The notes under the pieces are model-generated. The model had not been told where the DNA came from. It ran no database searches and saw only the letters and a list, made by a program, of their open reading frames with translations. A stretch of DNA of 64,000 bases from Halorussus halophilus. Lineage in GTDB: Archaea; Halobacteriota; Halobacteria; Halobacteriales; Haladaptataceae. Location of the stretch: NCBI RefSeq assembly GCF_008831545.1, contig NZ_CP044523.1:1798001-1862000 (forward strand). Direction: 5' to 3'. Of the stretch, positions 43,786 through 54,686 are shown piece by piece (the first letter of the stretch is position 1; each line of letters begins with the position of its first letter). A program made the position numbers and the translations under genes.

Positions 43786-44185
43786 CGCGATAGTCTCCGG
43801 TTCCTCTCTTCTCTGTCACCTTTCGTTGCGGTCGCTGTTTTCCCCGCTTCGTTCCGCGAGACCGGGACGTTACTCTCGCCCTTCCGAGTCGCTACGCGCA
43901 CACTAGCTCCAGTTCGACCGACTCGGAGTTGATACCGACAGTTCGGTCAGTTCTGGTGGTTCGTTCGGCGGTCGCAGACGCTCGGTTAAGCTACGCCGTC
44001 GTCTCAGGCCCCGTGTGTCCGGTTCACGTACAGCTGACACATAACAAAGGGCGAATCACAGGAACGTCGGGGTATCCCGCCAACTCGGCGGCGGTGACAC
44101 AACGCGGCCCCCTGACGACGTGGTTCGATGTCGCCCACGACTCACGTCGTCTGCCTCGGGCCGTCATCCGCGAACACACGAACAT
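43786..44185. other. 400-bp region between the PKD genes
   Basis: Noncoding. It contains a second ATAACAAAGGG at 44041-44051, about 135 bp before the start codon of the second PKD gene. The rest shows no hairpin with a T-tract that I can support. Confidence 0.5.
44041..44051 (+). promoter_or_regulatory. ATAACAAAGGG element, copy 2
   Basis: Identical to the motif upstream of the first PKD gene. It would give a leader of roughly 110 bases if it marks the promoter. Confidence 0.45.
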
Positions 44186-47100
44186 ATGACTCGGATACGA
44201 ACCCCACTCGTCGTCTGTATCGTTCTCCTGTTGGTCGTGGCGGCGGTCCCGCCCGTGCCGCCCTCCGTCGGCACCGCTAGCGCGGCCACCCACAGTTTCG
44301 CTATCGAGCAAGGCTCTCGCTGTGTCGAGGTGACGCCACTCCGTGGAAGTCAGAACGCGGTGAACTTCTACGACTATCGGAGTACCGACAACTACGACGG
44401 CCGAACTGCGACGACGTACAGTTCGTACATGCCGAACCACCTCCAAGCCGACGACACCAGTCGGCTGTTTCTCTACGACGGCCCGGACGGCGTGAGCCTC
44501 GTCGTCGTCCACAACAGGTTGCGAAACGGCGGCCGAAGTACCAGCGGCGGCAGCGCCGCGACGTTCCGGTTCAGCGGCCTCCCCAGCGGCGGCGACTGGG
44601 TGGTCGTGGACGACACCTACAGCGACCAAGACGACCGCTTCTCGCGCAACCGAATCGACTGGACGTGGTACGGCGAGCGAACCGACGGCGGCGTGTTCCG
44701 TGGCTTGGACCGCGACGGCACGAGCGTCACCATTCGCCCGCAGTTCGACGAGGACGCTGCGCTCTACGACGACCTGAACCGAGACGGCAACGTCCGCGCG
44801 TGGCAGTTCCTCACTGGAAGCATCAACGACTACCAGACGGTCGGGTTGAACATGAACCGGCCAGTCACGATTCGGACCGGGACGTGCGGTCCCGACGTGA
44901 CGCCGCCGAGCGCGTCACTCGCGGGCGTCGATGGCGTCGAGGGCCACCCCGTCACGCTGAACGCCGCCGGGTCCACCGACGACGAAGGCATCGAGCAGTA
45001 CCGCTGGGACTTCGACGGCGACGGCGAAATCGACCGAACGACCACCGGGCCGCGGACGAGTTTCACCTACCAATCGACCGGCGAGTACGAAGCTAGCGTC
45101 ACCGTGGTCGATGGCGGTGACAACACTGCGAGCGCAACGGCCACAGTCACTATCGACACGGACGACCCGCCGGACGCGGCCTTCGGCACTAACGCTGGCG
45201 AGTTCGTCGTCAGCAACGACACCATCGTCTTCGACGCTTCGAACAGCTCTGACGACCTCGCCATCAGCGAATACCGCTGGACGTTCGGCGACGACGCCAC
45301 CGCGACCGGTCAGCGAGTGACCTACCAGTTCCCCGACGAGGGGACCTACACAGTGACGCTCGAAACGACCGACAACAGCGGTCAGAACACGACCGTCAGC
45401 CGAACCTTCGACGTGTTGGCTCCCGACGAGTCGCCGCCCGACGCCAGAGCGAGCGCGAACCGGACGCGCGTCGAGGCAGGCGCACCCATCGGTTTCGACG
45501 CCACCGACTCGACGGACAACCGGCAACTCGCCGAGTTCCGTTGGGACTTCGGCGACGGGAGTAGTGGGTCCGGAGCGAACGCTGCGCACCGCTACACGAG
45601 TCCGGGTACGTACACCGCGACTGTGACGGTCACCGACGGTAACGACAACGCCGACTCGGTGAACGTGACCGTCGAAGTGACCAACCGGAGCGCGCCGGAG
45701 GCCAGTATCGAACTCCCCGACCAAGTGTCGGCAGGCGCGTCGGTCACCGCCGAAGCGACGGCCTCCGACGACAGCGGCGTCGCGAGCTACGAGTGGGACT
45801 TCGACGGCGACGGTCAGTTCGACGACGCGACCGGCGAGCGAGCATCCTACACCTACGCTCCGGCCGGAAACGAGTCGCGGAACGTGACGGTGACGCTCCG
45901 AGTCACGGACGCCGTCGGGGAGACGACCACGACGAGCGCGCAAATCGAGGTGCTAGGTCCGGACACCACGCCGCCGGACGTCTCGGCCGCGATAAACGAC
46001 GACACGGTTCGCGTCGGGGAATCTGTCTCCTTCGAGGCGACGGGTGCCGACGACAGGGGGTCGGTCACCTACGAATGGGACTTCAGCAACGGCACGACGA
46101 AAACCGGCGAGACGGTGACTCACAGCTACGAAGCGACCGGCAACTACACCGCGACGGTGACTGCGACCGACGAGGCAGGCAATACGAACACGGCCACCGT
46201 CGCCTTCGAAGTGAAACCGAAGCGGAGCAACTTCGGCGGCGGTGGCGGCGGAGGCGGTGGCGGTGGCGGCGGAGCGTCCAGTGTCGGCCCGCCGCCGGTC
46301 GCGTTGGACGTGCAATCGCAGGGCGACGGCAGCGCGCTCGTAGACGTGCAGAACGGCCGCGACGACAAGACGATTCGGGCGACGTTGCCCGAGACGGCGG
46401 CCGACGACGAAACCGGCGTGCGGTTCTACAGTCTCGCGGTGGACCTCGCGGACGACGAACCGCACTTCGCGGTGGAAACTGACCGGAACGTGGAGCTTTC
46501 GCCGATTCCAGCCGACGTGACCCTCGGATCGCTCTCGACCACACCAAAGTATCTCGACGGTGGGGCAGTCTCCGAAGTTCGGTACGTCGTGGACGTTCAG
46601 AAGAGCAAACTCGCCGACCTCGGCGTCACCGAGGAGGACCTAAGAGCGTACGGACAACTGGACGGGGAGTGGACCGAACTGAACACCACAGTAGACGACC
46701 GCGGCGACTCCGTGCGCGTCAAAGCTCGCGCGGACAAGTTCACTGCCGTCGCAGTCGGTGTAGACCGCCCGGCGCAGGTGACTGGTGTGAGTCTCGATGC
46801 GGAGCGAGTCGGGCCGGACGAGCCGGTCGTCGTGACGGCGACGGTCGAGAACCCGGGTGGAGACGCCGAATCGCTCGCCCTGAATCTCACCACAGACGGT
46901 AAAGTCGTCGCCAGCGAGGAGGTCGAGGTGGAGGGCGGCGAAACCAAGAACGTCTCGCTCGAAGCGACGCTCTCGGTCGGCACCCACGAACTCGCCGTCG
47001 GTGGCGAAAACGTCAGTATCGACGGCGAGCGCGTCGGGTCGGTGACCGTGGCCCAGAATCCTGCCGACCTACGAGTGACGAATCTGTCGCTCAATAGTTC

Positions 47101-47443
47101 CACCGTGACCGCGGGCGACTCTGTCGAGATAACGGCGACCGTCGAAAACCTCGGCGGGGCGTCGGGGTCCCGGTCGGTCGCACTCTCGCTATTCGGCGAG
47201 CAGATAGCGACCGAGAACGTGACAGTAGCCGCTGGTGAGCAGAAGCAGGTGACGTTCGTCCAGCAGGTTGACGCGCCGGGCGACTACGACGTGCAGGTTG
47301 GCGAGCAGACGGTCGAGTTGTCGGTGAAGGCCCAAGAGAAGAAGAGCGGAACCGGCGGAATTGGAATGATTCCCGGATTCGGGGTTGGAATTTCGCTGGT
47401 CGCGCTGGTGGTTGCGGTGCTGTTGGCGCGACGGCGAGCGTGA
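44186..47443 (+). CDS. Secreted PKD-repeat surface protein with PGF-CTERM anchor (B)
   Basis: A 1085-residue paralogue of the preceding protein. A signal peptide (MTRIRTPLVVCIVLLLVV to ASA) precedes the shared N-terminal domain (about 36-235), then five PKD-like repeats with motifs such as YRWDFDGDGEIDRTTTG and YEWDFDGDGQFDDATGE. A run of 13 glycines lies near residue 690. It is followed by a PGF-pre-PGF domain (about 700-865), two CARDB-like domains and the tail IPGFGVGISLVALVVAV plus RRRA. It should be lipid-anchored at the S-layer. Possible roles include adhesion, but no ligand is evident. Confidence 0.9.
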   Translation: MTRIRTPLVVCIVLLLVVAAVPPVPPSVGTASAATHSFAIEQGSRCVEVTPLRGSQNAVNFYDYRSTDNYDGRTATTYSSYMPNHLQADDTSRLFLYDGPDGVSLVVVHNRLRNGGRSTSGGSAATFRFSGLPSGGDWVVVDDTYSDQDDRFSRNRIDWTWYGERTDGGVFRGLDRDGTSVTIRPQFDEDAALYDDLNRDGNVRAWQFLTGSINDYQTVGLNMNRPVTIRTGTCGPDVTPPSASLAGVDGVEGHPVTLNAAGSTDDEGIEQYRWDFDGDGEIDRTTTGPRTSFTYQSTGEYEASVTVVDGGDNTASATATVTIDTDDPPDAAFGTNAGEFVVSNDTIVFDASNSSDDLAISEYRWTFGDDATATGQRVTYQFPDEGTYTVTLETTDNSGQNTTVSRTFDVLAPDESPPDARASANRTRVEAGAPIGFDATDSTDNRQLAEFRWDFGDGSSGSGANAAHRYTSPGTYTATVTVTDGNDNADSVNVTVEVTNRSAPEASIELPDQVSAGASVTAEATASDDSGVASYEWDFDGDGQFDDATGERASYTYAPAGNESRNVTVTLRVTDAVGETTTTSAQIEVLGPDTTPPDVSAAINDDTVRVGESVSFEATGADDRGSVTYEWDFSNGTTKTGETVTHSYEATGNYTATVTATDEAGNTNTATVAFEVKPKRSNFGGGGGGGGGGGGGASSVGPPPVALDVQSQGDGSALVDVQNGRDDKTIRATLPETAADDETGVRFYSLAVDLADDEPHFAVETDRNVELSPIPADVTLGSLSTTPKYLDGGAVSEVRYVVDVQKSKLADLGVTEEDLRAYGQLDGEWTELNTTVDDRGDSVRVKARADKFTAVAVGVDRPAQVTGVSLDAERVGPDEPVVVTATVENPGGDAESLALNLTTDGKVVASEEVEVEGGETKNVSLEATLSVGTHELAVGGENVSIDGERVGSVTVAQNPADLRVTNLSLNSSTVTAGDSVEITATVENLGGASGSRSVALSLFGEQIATENVTVAAGEQKQVTFVQQVDAPGDYDVQVGEQTVELSVKAQEKKSGTGGIGMIPGFGVGISLVALVVAVLLARRRA

Positions 47444-50273: not shown

Positions 50274-50723
50274 TCAGAACCCGCCAGCACAGAGTTCGGT
50301 CGTCTCGCGAACTTGCACCGCGACCGACTCGACGTTGTCGGGCAGTGCGGCGAGCAGTCGCCGTTCTAACACCACGCTCATCACTTCGGCGGTCGGCGGG
50401 GCGTCTAGCACGACTGTCGCATCCTCGTCACCACTCGCTTCGAAGGCTTCCACGAGCGGGTCTCCTGCTTCCAAGATGAACCTGTGGTCCCACTGGTCGA
50501 TTACCGTGGTAATATCACCCTTGTCTACGACCCACCCTTCCTCGGTGAGTTCGCCGACGACTTTCACGGTTATCTCGTAGTTGTGCCCGTGCGGGCGGCT
50601 ACATTTCCCGTCGTGGTGGAGCAGTCGATGCCCGGCACTGATGCGAATCGGCCGGTCCCGTCCCACGTAGAGGGTGCGCAATCTGTCGGTGTCTTCGTCA
50701 TCCCAGAGCGCGCCACTAGTCAT
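50274..50723 (-). CDS. queD: 6-Carboxy-5,6,7,8-tetrahydropterin synthase QueD
   Basis: A 149-residue PTPS-family enzyme. The zinc-binding and catalytic stretch is ISAGHRLLHHDGKCSRPHGH, followed by NYEITVKVVG; the C-terminus has PPTAEVMSVVLERRL and VRETTELCAG. It makes CPH4, the substrate of QueE. Its ATG has a TATA element 22-29 bp upstream, and it heads the queD-queE operon. Confidence 0.94.
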   Translation of the reverse strand: MTSGALWDDEDTDRLRTLYVGRDRPIRISAGHRLLHHDGKCSRPHGHNYEITVKVVGELTEEGWVVDKGDITTVIDQWDHRFILEAGDPLVEAFEASGDEDATVVLDAPPTAEVMSVVLERRLLAALPDNVESVAVQVRETTELCAGGF

Positions 50724-50752: not shown

Positions 50753-50835
50753 CCTGCGCAAACCGCCTCGGCTCCCCGCGTCAAGTGTAGACGTCTCGTA
50801 CGTCACTGATTATCACGTTCGATACTCTCGCTAAT

Positions 50836-50956
50836 GAAAATTCGAATATATATCGTTAGATTAAGGATGTTCGGATTCGTATCCTGTTTCAGTACGGCGA
50901 TTGTAGTGTCAATGAGGATTTGAATATCAAATTTGGTAATTCGAGAAATGTATTAG
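50836..50956. promoter_or_regulatory. AT-rich control region of the peptide-CHAT genes
   Basis: This stretch is much richer in A and T than its surroundings. It contains TATATAT near 50846 and an inverted repeat ATTTGA-ATA-TCAAAT at 50918-50932. GTATTA around 50950 lies about 27-31 bp before the peptide ATG. It could hold the promoter and an operator; no regulator is known. Confidence 0.4.
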
Positions 50957-50980
50957 AGCGACGTAGCGAAATCGGGTGGC

Positions 50981-51178
50981 ATGCCAGTAACGAAGGTGTC
51001 ACGACTGGCTGTAACGCATCCGAGACTCGTACTCACGGTGACGCTGTTCGCCGTGCTGGTACTGCTCGCAGCAGACCCCGCTTCGGCCATGTCTCATGGC
51101 AGGTTCGAACCACTAATCAGGTTGGACTTGGTCGGCGGAATGGACCCGAACGGCGCGTACATCGACGGCGGCCCATAA
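50981..51178 (+). CDS. Small secreted peptide upstream of the CHAT gene
   Basis: A 65-residue protein. MPVTKVSRLAVTHPRLVLTV is a basic start leading into a hydrophobic core (TLFAVLVLLAADPASA) with an apparent signal-peptidase site after ASA. The predicted mature peptide is only about 29 residues, with RFEPLIRLDLVGGMDPNGAY and a glycine/proline end (DGGP). It has no cysteine, so it is not a disulfide-rich bacteriocin. It lies 43 bp ahead of the CHAT gene on the same strand. Candidate substrate, signal or partner of that protein. Confidence 0.65.
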   Translation: MPVTKVSRLAVTHPRLVLTVTLFAVLVLLAADPASAMSHGRFEPLIRLDLVGGMDPNGAYIDGGP

Positions 51179-51221
51179 GCAAGACCCCTCGAAAACACCA
51201 TTTCAGTACACCACATAGCAG

Positions 51222-53585
51222 ATGACCCTCGACATCACGACGGACGACCGAAAGCGGTGGACGATTACGGACACGGCCGAACGACGACAGCTCTCGCTAT
51301 TGTTCCCCAGTACGGTGTCGCCGACTGCGGAATCCGTAGACGAGTTCATCTATCCGGTAGACGATGCTTTTTCGGTCGAGGCCCGTAACGTCGTCGTCGA
51401 GGACGGTGCATCTGCCACCGTGTTAGACGCCGACGGCGAGGTTTGGGCGAAAGTCGGAACCGAGTCGTGGACCAACGACGTTCCGCCCGGGACGTACTAC
51501 CTACAGGTCGCCAACCACATCAAGACCTACCTCCGCGTAACCGCACCCGAAGGCATCGAAATCGAAGCCGACCCGAAAGCCTCGACTGTCGAGGTCGATT
51601 TTCACGAACCGGTCGAAATCTCCGTCGGCGCGCGTTCGGTCCACGACCGACCGACGGAGACTATCACGACGACTGCCGCACCGGAAGACGTGATGACGGC
51701 GGTGTCGTACCTCGGGTCCGCACTCAAAGACTTCGGGGCGATGCGGTCGTTCCCCTCGCTGAGAGGCCACCCACCGGAGGTCGAACTCGGCGACGAACTC
51801 CACGTTCCCGAGTCACTTTCGAAACCCGACACGGGAGTCGTCGTAGAACTCCCGCCGACGTACGACCACGTGTTCGCGGTCGCACCGCTCGCGTACTACC
51901 TCGGTGCCGAAGTCGTTCCGGGCGACAGACCCACGCTTCGGGCCGGGGAGTTCGAGTTCCCGCTCGACGGCGCAGACGGATTCGAGCAGACGGTCAACGA
52001 CGTGCTTCAGCACGTGTTCGTCTGCGACTGCTTCGTCCGAACGGCAGGCCCGTACTCGTTCGGCTTGGGAAGACAAGCCGACTTCGAGCGCGAAACCGGA
52101 CTCGACCCCGAGGAGGTGTTCGGGCAACCGCTCGCTCGCCAAGTCGAGACCTACCTCTCGGTCCCGTTCGAGGCAGTCGAACCGTTCCGTCCCCACTGGG
52201 GCCTCGGCGCACACCTCGAACCGGTACCCGAGAACGTCGAGTACCTCCCGTTCCTCGCGCGGGACCTCGCCGTCGTTCGGTCGCCTTCTACTCGCAAGCA
52301 GTGGCCGTCCGTAGACGCGGTCACGGGAGCCGAAGCGACGCCCGCCGACGGTGAATTCAACCGGAGTGCGGCGGCAGTCTCCGACGACGCGGGCGACGCG
52401 TTCGGTCCCGAGACGCCGTCCGTATCCGGTGGTCCGACCGACGGAGAGACGGAGTCACCAGATTCGCTCTCGCATCTCTCTTGGGCGTCCGAAACGCCGT
52501 CCGTGGTCGTTCCCGAACCGCTGGAGACCCAGGAGCAACAGTGGATGAGCGATGGCGTCCCTCTCGGTGCGGACAAGCCACTGTTGGAGTCGTACCGGAA
52601 CGAACTCGACAGAGACCCCGTCGAGGGCGACATCGAGATACTCGTCGTCTGCAACGACGACCGGATGGCCGCAGAGGACGACGCAGTTCGGAACCTCCTC
52701 AGTGCGGACACGCCGTTCGACGTCCACATTCGACCGTACCGAAACCTCACGACCGAGGAGCTTCGCACGTTGCTCGAACGCGGTGGCGAGTACCTCCACT
52801 ACATCGGCCACATCGACGAGAATGGATTCGTCTGTGCCGACGGGTCGCTCGACGTGGCAACGATAGACACCGTCAACGTGGACGCGTTCTTCTTGAACGC
52901 CTGCCAGTCCTACGAACAGGGACGGGCGCTGGTCGATGCAGGTGCCCTCGCTGGCGTCGTCACGCTGACGGACGTGTTGAACGACAACGCCGGACGAACC
53001 GGCGAATCGATGGCTCGACTGTTGAACAACGGCTTCCCACTCAACACGTCGCTCCGACTGACCTGCGACGAACACGACGCCTCCGAGAAGTACACGGTCA
53101 TCGGCGACGGCAGTCTCCAAATCGCACAGGCCAAGAGCATCTCGTACACCGTGGACACGGCGCTAACGGGCACCGACGAAGTGGCCTACGAGTTCCGCTC
53201 GTTCGTCTCACCACAGTTCCGCTTGGGTGCGATTCAGACGCCCGCCATCGACGACATCGAGGGCTGGTTCCTCTCGGGAACGACGGTCGAAGCGCACGTC
53301 GATAGTCGGCAACTGACCGAGAGTTTCACCCACGCAGACGCCCCGGTTCACTTCCACGGTGGCTTCCACTGGACGACGGACCTCGTGGACCGAATCGCCA
53401 GCCTCGTCGAGTTCGACAAGCGACTGGAGACGTCAGCCGCGTTAGCGACCGACGAGGAGCGTTCGACGGCCGCAGACGACTCTTCCGGGGCGAGTCAGTT
53501 CGCAGCCATCCAAAAAGAACTCGACCAACTTCTCGACACCTTCGACACCGAAGACTTCCAGCTCGCGTTCCACACACTCGACTGA
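51222..53585 (+). CDS. CHAT-domain (caspase-like) protein
   Basis: A 787-residue acidic protein without signal peptide. Residues about 1-390 form an unrecognised beta-rich N-terminal part, followed by an acidic Ser/Thr-rich linker (about 391-430). The CHAT domain spans roughly 455-660: a helix-strand lead (EGDIEILVVCNDDRM), EYLHYIGHIDENGFVC with His526 and His530, and VDAFFLNACQSYEQGRALVD with Cys561. This His...Cys pair fits the catalytic dyad of CHAT proteases, His530 being the better candidate. A helical C-terminus (ELDQLLDTFDTEDFQLAFHT) follows. Confidence 0.75.
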   Translation: MTLDITTDDRKRWTITDTAERRQLSLLFPSTVSPTAESVDEFIYPVDDAFSVEARNVVVEDGASATVLDADGEVWAKVGTESWTNDVPPGTYYLQVANHIKTYLRVTAPEGIEIEADPKASTVEVDFHEPVEISVGARSVHDRPTETITTTAAPEDVMTAVSYLGSALKDFGAMRSFPSLRGHPPEVELGDELHVPESLSKPDTGVVVELPPTYDHVFAVAPLAYYLGAEVVPGDRPTLRAGEFEFPLDGADGFEQTVNDVLQHVFVCDCFVRTAGPYSFGLGRQADFERETGLDPEEVFGQPLARQVETYLSVPFEAVEPFRPHWGLGAHLEPVPENVEYLPFLARDLAVVRSPSTRKQWPSVDAVTGAEATPADGEFNRSAAAVSDDAGDAFGPETPSVSGGPTDGETESPDSLSHLSWASETPSVVVPEPLETQEQQWMSDGVPLGADKPLLESYRNELDRDPVEGDIEILVVCNDDRMAAEDDAVRNLLSADTPFDVHIRPYRNLTTEELRTLLERGGEYLHYIGHIDENGFVCADGSLDVATIDTVNVDAFFLNACQSYEQGRALVDAGALAGVVTLTDVLNDNAGRTGESMARLLNNGFPLNTSLRLTCDEHDASEKYTVIGDGSLQIAQAKSISYTVDTALTGTDEVAYEFRSFVSPQFRLGAIQTPAIDDIEGWFLSGTTVEAHVDSRQLTESFTHADAPVHFHGGFHWTTDLVDRIASLVEFDKRLETSAALATDEERSTAADDSSGASQFAAIQKELDQLLDTFDTEDFQLAFHTLD

Positions 53586-53597
53586 ACTGTGACTTTC

Positions 53598-54179
53598 TCA
53601 CCGATTTCGAACTTCGACCGACGTACCTCTCGGACCGGTGGTCACGACTGCGTCGAACAGATGCTCGAACGTGGCGACGGTCGTCTGGTCGTGAGCGGCA
53701 GGGTCTAAGCGATACCATCCGATGCCGTTGCTGTGCTCGACGCGACCGCTCACGAGATGCAGGAAAGAGAACGCGTCCTCGACGGTCACGTGGTCGAGGA
53801 GCGCGGTGAGAGAATCGAAGACGACCACTATCGACTCGTCGCCGCCGTGCCACCGCGTCAGCGCTTCGTTTATCTGGAGGCCGATGCCCGACAGGTCGTC
53901 CGGTGCTTCTCGCCGGACTTGTCCACGGGAGTGTTCGGTCGCCGGGGTGTCCTTCGTCGCTTCGACGACACGTACTTCGCTGGGGTCTACCGCCCGGAAT
54001 CGGTCTCGAATAGCGTCGGTGTTGGTGTCGGCGTCGGTGTCTGCGTCAGCGTCGGTGTCGGCATAGCTAACGACGAGTAGGCGTGGTGACTCGGGAACTC
54101 GTTCGAGACAGAGTTCCTGCGTCTCGTCCGAGACGAGGGCCAGAACGCTCGTCCCGTTCGGTAGCGGTCTAGAATTCAT
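53598..54179 (-). CDS. RecA-like protein of haloarchaeal signalling (DUF7504-like)
   Basis: A 193-residue protein. NGTSVLALVSDETQELCLER and ESPRLLVVSYAD resemble the start of KaiC/RecA-like haloarchaeal proteins, but no Walker A P-loop is present. ESIVVVFDSLTALLDHVTVE looks like the Walker B strand and LVSGRVEHSNGIGWYRLDP the next element. It fits the DUF7504 type as I recall it. A tandem DADTDAD repeat lies at residues 43-54. It is convergent with the CHAT gene. Confidence 0.6.
   Translation of the reverse strand: MNSRPLPNGTSVLALVSDETQELCLERVPESPRLLVVSYADTDADADTDADTNTDAIRDRFRAVDPSEVRVVEATKDTPATEHSRGQVRREAPDDLSGIGLQINEALTRWHGGDESIVVVFDSLTALLDHVTVEDAFSFLHLVSGRVEHSNGIGWYRLDPAAHDQTTVATFEHLFDAVVTTGPRGTSVEVRNR
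54010..54062. repeat. 6-bp tandem repeat within the DUF7504-like gene
   Basis: Imperfect GTCGGT units on the plus strand encode alternating Asp-Ala/Thr residues. The unit keeps the frame, so copy-number change would alter the length of an acidic loop only. Confidence 0.6.
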
Positions 54180-54275
54180 ATCTCCCTGTATCGAGAACGA
54201 CTACTGAAACAGGTCATATTAACTTCTCGTTTTGCTGGCAAGAAGTTCCGACGAACCGCCCGCCGACTTCTACGG

Positions 54276-54686
54276 TCAGTCCGACGACGGGTCTGTGTCG
54301 GTCTCGTCTTCGTCGTCGTTCTCGTCGCGTTGGTCCAAACTTTCCTCGTGCTGGTCCGCGCGCGTTCCGTCGCCCTCGTTCGGTCGTCGCGCGAGTCGGT
54401 CGAACCGCGACTGAGCATCGGAAACGCGCCGCTCGGTCTCCTCGGCGTCGTACTCGATTTCGACGACGGTGCCGTCCCCCACTCGCAACTCGCAGACCGC
54501 GTCCTGCCGACGTGCCTCTTCGGGGAGTTCCGACGCCGACAGTAGCTTCTCGGCGACTACTCCGTCGTCGCCCTCCAACAGGAAGACGGCGACCCTGTTG
54601 TCGTCTCCGTCGTCTTCCTGCGTGTCCTCGAACCGGTCGAGTACTGCGGTGTAGGTGCCGTCAGCGACCATGTTGGGACGCTCCAT
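54276..54686 (-). CDS. DUF3006 family protein
   Basis: A 136-residue protein. MVADGTYTAVLDRFEDTQED and VVEIEYDAEETERRVSDAQS are the beta-strand core and linker helix of DUF3006, followed by an acidic tail. Its ATG overlaps the stop of the next gene as TAATG, so it is co-translated with the metallo-beta-lactamase protein. DUF3006 proteins often accompany ComEC-like MBL enzymes; the role is unknown. Confidence 0.85.
   Translation of the reverse strand: MERPNMVADGTYTAVLDRFEDTQEDDGDDNRVAVFLLEGDDGVVAEKLLSASELPEEARRQDAVCELRVGDGTVVEIEYDAEETERRVSDAQSRFDRLARRPNEGDGTRADQHEESLDQRDENDDEDETDTDPSSD

Follow-up and report, generated by a model that had tools for sequence, protein, structure and literature searches.

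A CHAT protease with a dedicated substrate encoded next door is already known from Craspase, in which the TPR-CHAT protein Csx29 is paired with Csx30 (PMC10028731). In the SAVED-CHAT filament protease (PDB 8tl0), sensor and protease are combined in a protein of the CHAT caspase fold, and bacterial gasdermin systems have a caspase-like or CHAT protease adjacent to the gene for a membrane-acting protein. Separase and the gingipains R and K, of clan CD, have a two-part caspase fold with a His/Cys pair and prefer Arg or Lys. As for archaea, a metacaspase survey found matches in only 5 of 114 genomes (PMC3501461), and Haloferax volcanii is reported to have a caspase-like activity that is caspase-4-like (Asp at P1), with the genomes said to lack clear homologues (PMC3615174).

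Here we examine a stretch of 64,000 nucleotides from Halorussus halophilus (the window; 1798001-1862000 of the main contig), in which a predicted CHAT protease stands between a small hydrophobic protein gene and a gene of the DUF7504 family. Like Craspase, the locus has a CHAT protease (VIA Z of about 13 to TPR-CHAT) with a neighboring partner gene, the partner being a putative substrate; unlike it, the haloarchaeal module has no TPR and no Cas7-11, and its genes lie tail to tail. Csx30 is a large soluble protein, whereas the usual haloarchaeal partner, DUF7503, is a transmembrane (TM) protein of ~44 aa. The likeness to SAVED-CHAT lies in the caspase fold and the sensor-plus-protease logic, but the window module has no SAVED domain or CRISPR genes, and its partner is a membrane mini-protein. 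From separase and the gingipains, whose Arg/Lys preference is only predicted for the window protein, it differs in its N-terminal domain, in its tiny partner, and in being a cytoplasmic archaeal protein. The bacterial gasdermin systems likewise set a protease beside the gene of a membrane-acting protein, but the haloarchaeal partner is one TM helix and nothing gasdermin-like. DUF7503 (PF24335) and DUF7504 (PF24336) are Pfam families of unknown function that take in, respectively, peptides of paralogous CHAT loci and the third gene of the window module; a search of open-licence papers found none naming either family or describing a haloarchaeal CHAT-peptide system. What is new here is a membrane partner of ~44 aa, kept tail to tail with CHAT across haloarchaea. 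As a CHAT client, it would be far smaller than any other known to us.

Results

A structure model of the window CHAT protein, made with AlphaFold from 84 homologues (pLDDT 86, pTM 0.85), matched SAVED-CHAT in Foldseek (E of 2e-7), as well as separase and gingipains. VIA gave Z values of 19.2 for gingipain R, 17.7 for gingipain K, 14.9 for separase, 14.5 for SAVED-CHAT (169 residues), 13.6 for the DdvA anti-sigma factor, and about 13 for TPR-CHAT. These model matches place the protein in the caspase/CHAT fold (CHAT peptidases PF12770, clan CD). Its Pfam score for PF12770 is 11.6 bits against a cutoff of 24; one paralogue reaches 30.9 bits, and with an E limit of 0.1 the family model picks up 8 of the 13. 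Metacaspase/Peptidase C14 (PF00656) matched neither the window protein (E up to 1) nor its 12 paralogues (E up to 0.1), and a sequence profile of the CHAT protein found only noise in the PDB. Six residues, His526, Gly529, His530, Asn559, Cys561, and Ser563, are invariant in all 84 homologues. Thus, the first-pass annotation of a CHAT-type protein with His530 and Cys561 holds up on both fold and residues, and the loss of either residue, for which it had asked that homologues be checked, was seen in none of the 84.

Asp479 lies where we take the S1 acid of Arg-specific clan CD members to be; it is a candidate S1 residue for Arg/Lys specificity, and the window CHAT and its family may well be Arg/Lys-directed proteases. 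The domains and other features are given in Table 1. Residues 154-370 are probably a pseudo-caspase half. No Foldseek match reached E 0.001 for the N-terminal half, and the resemblance of its first domain to a super-sandwich is borderline, so we draw no function for this half. We rejected the idea that the C-terminal tail comes from reading a former DUF7503 gene in antisense.

Table 1. Features of the module and its flanks (positions in the window)
Feature	Position	Strand	Basis or remark
queD, left flank of module	50274-50723	-	
Whole inserted module	50767..54275	.	between queD and the 136-aa gene; boundaries approximate
Presumed control region for the peptide and CHAT genes, AT rich	50800..50980	+	AT 58-72% in 50800-50950
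Signal-peptide-like protein of 65 aa with DGGP at its end; probably a diverged DUF7503-type partner or a replacement for one	50981..51178	+	
His-Pro-Arg, residues 13-15, directly before hydrophobic segment	51017..51025	+	equivalent of DUF7503 [NH]P[RK]
C-terminal Gly-Pro of the 65-aa protein	51170..51175	+	GP end in 81/85 DUF7503 peptides
CHAT-fold cysteine protease (predicted), 787 aa	51222..53585	+	structure model; gingipain, separase, and CHAT matches; weak Pfam CHAT score
N-terminal beta super-sandwich, residues 1-141, galactose-mutarotase-like/YidC-P1-like	51222..51644	+	borderline VIA Z (8.9 and 8.2)
Second alpha/beta domain, 154-370, with invariant RxxPxLRxHPP	51681..52331	+	conservation; gingipain/separase alignments start around model residues 324-328
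Catalytic caspase-fold domain, about 436-640	52527..53141	+	VIA model range 325-636
Asp479, conserved acid ending strand 1; candidate S1 residue	52656..52658	+	D 81/84, E 2/84
Catalytic His530 (predicted)	52809..52811	+	84/84
Catalytic Cys561 (predicted)	52902..52904	+	84/84
C-terminal helical tail, 718-787	53373..53582	+	window protein only, among its 13 paralogues
DUF7504 (PF24336) protein, KaiC-like fold without Walker A	53598..54179	-	103.4 bits vs cutoff 27
136-aa gene (p136), right flank of module	54276-54686	-	

The basic description of the locus was confirmed: the 65-codon and 787-codon ORFs, each starting with ATG, lie in tandem with a gap of 43 bp. The small product does look like the signal peptide ascribed to it: an N-terminus of charge +3 leads into a hydrophobic segment and then DPASA, and the remaining 29 residues end in DGGP. 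The region upstream of the pair is AT rich, as had been said, with 58 to 72% AT in the stretch given in Table 1 and about 37 to 40% in the window genes. The DUF7504 gene, a third component, is convergent with the CHAT gene, with 12 bp between the stop codons; the first-pass annotation did not have it.

The CHAT module at this locus is an insertion, and congeners show the empty site. Their homologues of queD, p136, and MBL495 (MBL-fold) follow in the same order without CHAT, peptide, or DUF7504 in between. This module-free queD-p136 neighborhood is the arrangement in most congeners, and in some the same gap holds another gene, lipoprotein-like by eye. The gene order in the window is peptide> CHAT> <DUF7504, and the canonical haloarchaeal order is DUF7504> CHAT> <DUF7503; turning only CHAT around in the canonical order, as seen from the opposite strand, gives the window order, and we take this to be a rearranged copy of the module. 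There were no convincing inverted repeats at the ends of the putative inversion. A perfect 12-nt inverted repeat, CCTGTTTCAGTA / TACTGAAACAGG, is found at 50883-50894 and 54202-54213 in the non-coding flanks of the module; it is near chance level and is possibly a shared promoter element or an insertion relic. Elsewhere in the window, upstream of the que genes, positions 44120-47443 encode a large surface protein that resembles PKD-repeat proteins and is apparently secreted; it has a hydrophobic segment at the C-terminus and an RRR tail.

The host genome has 13 CHAT paralogues, and at 8 of them an opposite-strand ORF of 42 to 67 codons, ending in Gly-Pro, abuts or overlaps the CHAT stop codon. 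Among the host peptides tested against DUF7503, three scored 64 to 71 bits and a diverged one, at locus L014, scored 19.8 (cutoff, 27). We then compared 80 CHAT loci from other haloarchaea, 79 of them intact; a convergent DUF7503 gene lies at the CHAT 3′ end in 73 of the 79, with a gap of -17 to +126 bp, mostly -4 to +7. A reverse search of 116 genomes, with Haloferax volcanii among them as a control, returned 128 DUF7503 matches, of which 119 were convergent at the 3′ end of a listed CHAT and none was on the same strand as, or divergent from, a listed CHAT within 400 bp. Two of the other 9 are known CHAT loci of the host genome that were not among the CHAT matches listed. Both genes are present in 95 genomes, CHAT only in 7, DUF7503 only in none, and neither in 14 (Fisher 3e-13, with kinship ignored); the CHAT family is thus present in 102 of 116 haloarchaeal genomes. 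The earlier proposal that a secreted peptide encoded upstream on the same strand is the conserved partner fails here by the test it had set itself, given homologues without an upstream small ORF and a partner that is convergent instead. Its more general part, that CHAT is paired with a dedicated small hydrophobic protein, survives, and the association is far stronger than could be seen from the sequence alone.

In a tree of 77 CHATs, the convergent peptide is ancestral and was lost once in a Halorussus clade and at two single loci. The branch of the window protein is long, and the exact place of this protein is unsure. Peptide and CHAT distances are correlated over 8 paralogous pairs of the host genome (Mantel r of 0.68, p of 0.002). 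CHAT and DUF7503 are near-universal and locally syntenic in Haloferacaceae and Haloarculaceae, and plasmid-borne copies of the module exist. RefSeq calls the CHAT proteins mostly "hypothetical protein," with two plasmid records given as "CHAT domain-containing" or "caspase family."

The Halorussus clade that has no recognizable peptide gene (L012, L016, L019, and L022 in the host genome; L164, L165, L166, L168, L177, and L179 in congeners) keeps both His and Cys, so the mini-protein is not the sole possible client of these proteases; in this clade, the client must be something else. At L171 (781-3624 in CHAT orientation), a 947-codon CHAT frame is followed by two tandem DUF7503-like ORFs, which suggests that the peptide gene was duplicated recently. 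A HalX-type response regulator of Haloferax (L077:6335-6925, minus strand) is encoded just ahead of the DUF7503 gene in the same direction and is a possible transcriptional input.

DUF7503 peptides are ~44 aa long with a single TM segment. The consensus of 85 of them is [NH]P[RK]-M-x-G-[VA]-L-F-T-x2-L3-[ST]-Q-A-G-x2-A-A-x(5-7)-G-P-stop; a basic residue follows the Pro in 84 of the 85, the GP end is present in 81, and the distance from the Pro to the C-terminus is 30 to 31 residues in 73. Of the two motifs singled out earlier in the window peptide, then, LVGGM/GGM is not conserved and the terminal Gly-Pro is. Haloferax DUF7503 is under purifying selection (pN/pS of 0.21), with pN 0.04 in the TM core and 0.17 in the tail. 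Ahead of the motif, the N-terminus is mostly net negative, unlike that of an ordinary signal peptide. With this N-terminus, a fixed length, and a highly conserved TM segment, the usual partner has the look of a mini-protein anchored in the membrane rather than of a classic secreted peptide.

DUF7504 is directly upstream of and codirectional with CHAT in 32 of the 79 loci and likewise at many loci of the genus. In an alignment of CHAT-linked members, a non-GKT sequence replaces Walker A and the FDSL strand is retained; DUF7504 would thus be like a KaiC-type pseudo-ATPase, the resemblance to KaiC being weak by sequence. Since this large family has many copies without a CHAT link, we regard it as accessory to the module, not core. 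The closest relatives of the window member (38 to 46% identity) are not CHAT linked. Its gene contains, at 54013-54062, short tandem repeats that code for an Asp/Ala/Thr-rich linker, DTDADTDADTN.

The window peptide shares with DUF7503 both the [NH]P[RK] motif before the TM segment (as HPR) and the C-terminal GP (as GGP). In 1.0 Mb of haloarchaeal DNA, 71 of 525 small hydrophobic ORFs end in GP, and 68 of the 71 carry [NHRDSE]P[RK] ahead of the segment; almost all of these are DUF7503 peptides. At the same time, PF24335 did not match the window peptide at E up to 1 (cutoff, 27 bits), and our own 22-sequence DUF7503 profile, which ranked it second among 581 window ORFs (E of 0.34), does not claim it. 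From the Pro to the C-terminus it has 52 residues (30 to 31 in DUF7503), it has no QAG, and plain searches found no homologue in the host genome or in 17 congeners. It is encoded upstream of CHAT on the same strand, whereas the canonical DUF7503 position is convergent at the CHAT 3′ end. Because it misses the profile, has a long 29-residue tail, and is without QAG or a congener homologue, we do not file it under DUF7503; most probably it is a CHAT partner that has diverged or has taken the place of the original one.

Discussion

The haloarchaeal module probably works as a protease that has a membrane protein of its own for substrate or anchor. Our preferred reading, to which we give a probability of only about 0.42, is that the window locus is a rearranged version of a three-part module, in which CHAT docks on the membrane mini-protein and cuts it, with the Arg/Lys of [NH]P[RK] as the cleavage site. 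We imagine the N-terminus of the membrane-embedded mini-protein on the inner side, so that this invariant residue would be the only basic one always at the cytoplasmic border, where a cytoplasmic CHAT could dock and cut. The cut would be gated by a stimulus, sensed through the N-terminal domain of CHAT and/or DUF7504, and cleavage would release or reshape the TM peptide, giving a signal or a change in the membrane. The window order would have arisen by a single inversion of CHAT (or an equivalent reshuffle), leaving the peptide gene ahead of CHAT on the same strand and DUF7504 behind it; the peptide and the CHAT tail would have diverged since.

Several lines of evidence argue for this module: the fold and catalytic pair, the convergent pairing, purifying selection, co-divergence, the conserved [NH]P[RK] and GP, the empty site in congeners, and DUF7504 upstream in 32 loci. 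A cut at Arg/Lys fits the expected S1 acid (Asp479) and the fold kinship with the Arg/Lys-specific gingipains and separase. Against the module count the failure of the window peptide to match the DUF7503 profile and the clade of CHATs without a peptide. The positive-inside rule also predicts a basic residue at a TM border, which counts against reading the motif as a cleavage site.

The window peptide raises the question of whether it is a partner at all. We think it unlikely that the 65-codon ORF is a chance signal-peptide-like frame beside a CHAT that has no partner, like those of the peptide-less clade. Such a view would account for the missing profile match and congener homologues, for the wrong position, and for the average codon usage, which is coding-like (GC1/GC2/GC3 of 0.65/0.45/0.68) but alone no proof of coding. 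However, the two marks are almost confined to DUF7503 peptides in 1.0 Mb, so that a chance peptide with both of them beside CHAT is not to be expected, and this one adjoins CHAT within a clean insertion. It can also be aligned to a paralogue's peptide (SRVA-RPRLV...LFA.VLLA), and the Mantel correlation persists with the window pair included (r of 0.72).

The mini-protein need not be a substrate. It might instead be a membrane anchor or sensor subunit that recruits CHAT and switches it on or off, the substrates being elsewhere, a possibility that is doubtful but to be taken seriously. Conservation is higher in the TM core than in the tail, the G, F, Q, and AG positions are conserved as in helix-helix contacts, the near-universal, syntenic occurrence in two families suggests a housekeeping role, and DdvA, among the CHAT fold relatives, is a transmembrane anti-sigma factor; yet anchoring alone does not account for a near-invariant C-terminal GP at fixed length, and the peptide-less clade suggests that anchoring is dispensable. 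It is improbable that DUF7503 is a pre-peptide, cut by signal peptidase after the AxA-like stretch to export a GP-ending oligopeptide of ~7 to 10 residues, a species-specific pheromone that CHAT and DUF7504 would help to process or to answer. That picture suits a conserved leader with a variable, less constrained short tail (pN of 0.17 versus 0.04) and a fixed GP end, the AA/AxA ahead of the tail, and the window version, which resembles a classic signal peptide, but not the mostly net-negative N-terminus of DUF7503 or a CHAT without an export signal. In Haloferax, the known density signal withstands proteinase K and behaves like a small molecule (PMC12240190); this speaks against the pheromone, and on account of the resistance we rejected that signal as the peptide product. 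Equally improbable, in our judgment, is a suicide or defense switch of gasdermin-like logic, in which CHAT, activated by damage or virus, would cut the mini-protein to form membrane pores. CHAT proteases do serve in the CRISPR Craspase and SAVED-CHAT systems, and the expansion to 13 copies in Halorussus, the module insertion, and the plasmid copies would fit. But no PADLOC protein model matched CHAT or DUF7504 (0 families at E up to 1), none of 50,697 phage records has a copy of the module, and there is no gasdermin-fold pore former in the window module, where CHAT's only neighbors are the 65-aa peptide and DUF7504; an NCBIfam search also gave no match. Near-universality and local synteny in some families are unlike patchy defense genes.

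Together with the absence from PADLOC and phages, that near-universality and family-level synteny speak for a core role, while the Halorussus expansion, the plasmid copies, and the inserted window copy point to mobility of the module. One can envision a more general role, as a near-universal haloarchaeal caspase-fold signaling or death module in which CHAT controls a ~44-residue, single-helix membrane protein ending in GP and which is the genetic basis of archaeal caspase-like activity, although we hold this to be unlikely. The activity in Haloferax volcanii (PMC3615174) is likewise haloarchaeal and caspase type; the link to it is a lead only, given Asp at P1 there and the Arg/Lys specificity predicted for haloarchaeal CHAT.

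Tail-to-tail convergent pairing is unusual for linked genes, and it gives two Pfam families of unknown function, DUF7503 and DUF7504, a context. For the study of archaeal caspase-type proteolysis, CHAT and the mini-protein provide defined genes and a candidate substrate in the genetically tractable Haloferax. If the general role proposed here is true, they would also supply the genes that have been missing for archaeal caspase-like activity.
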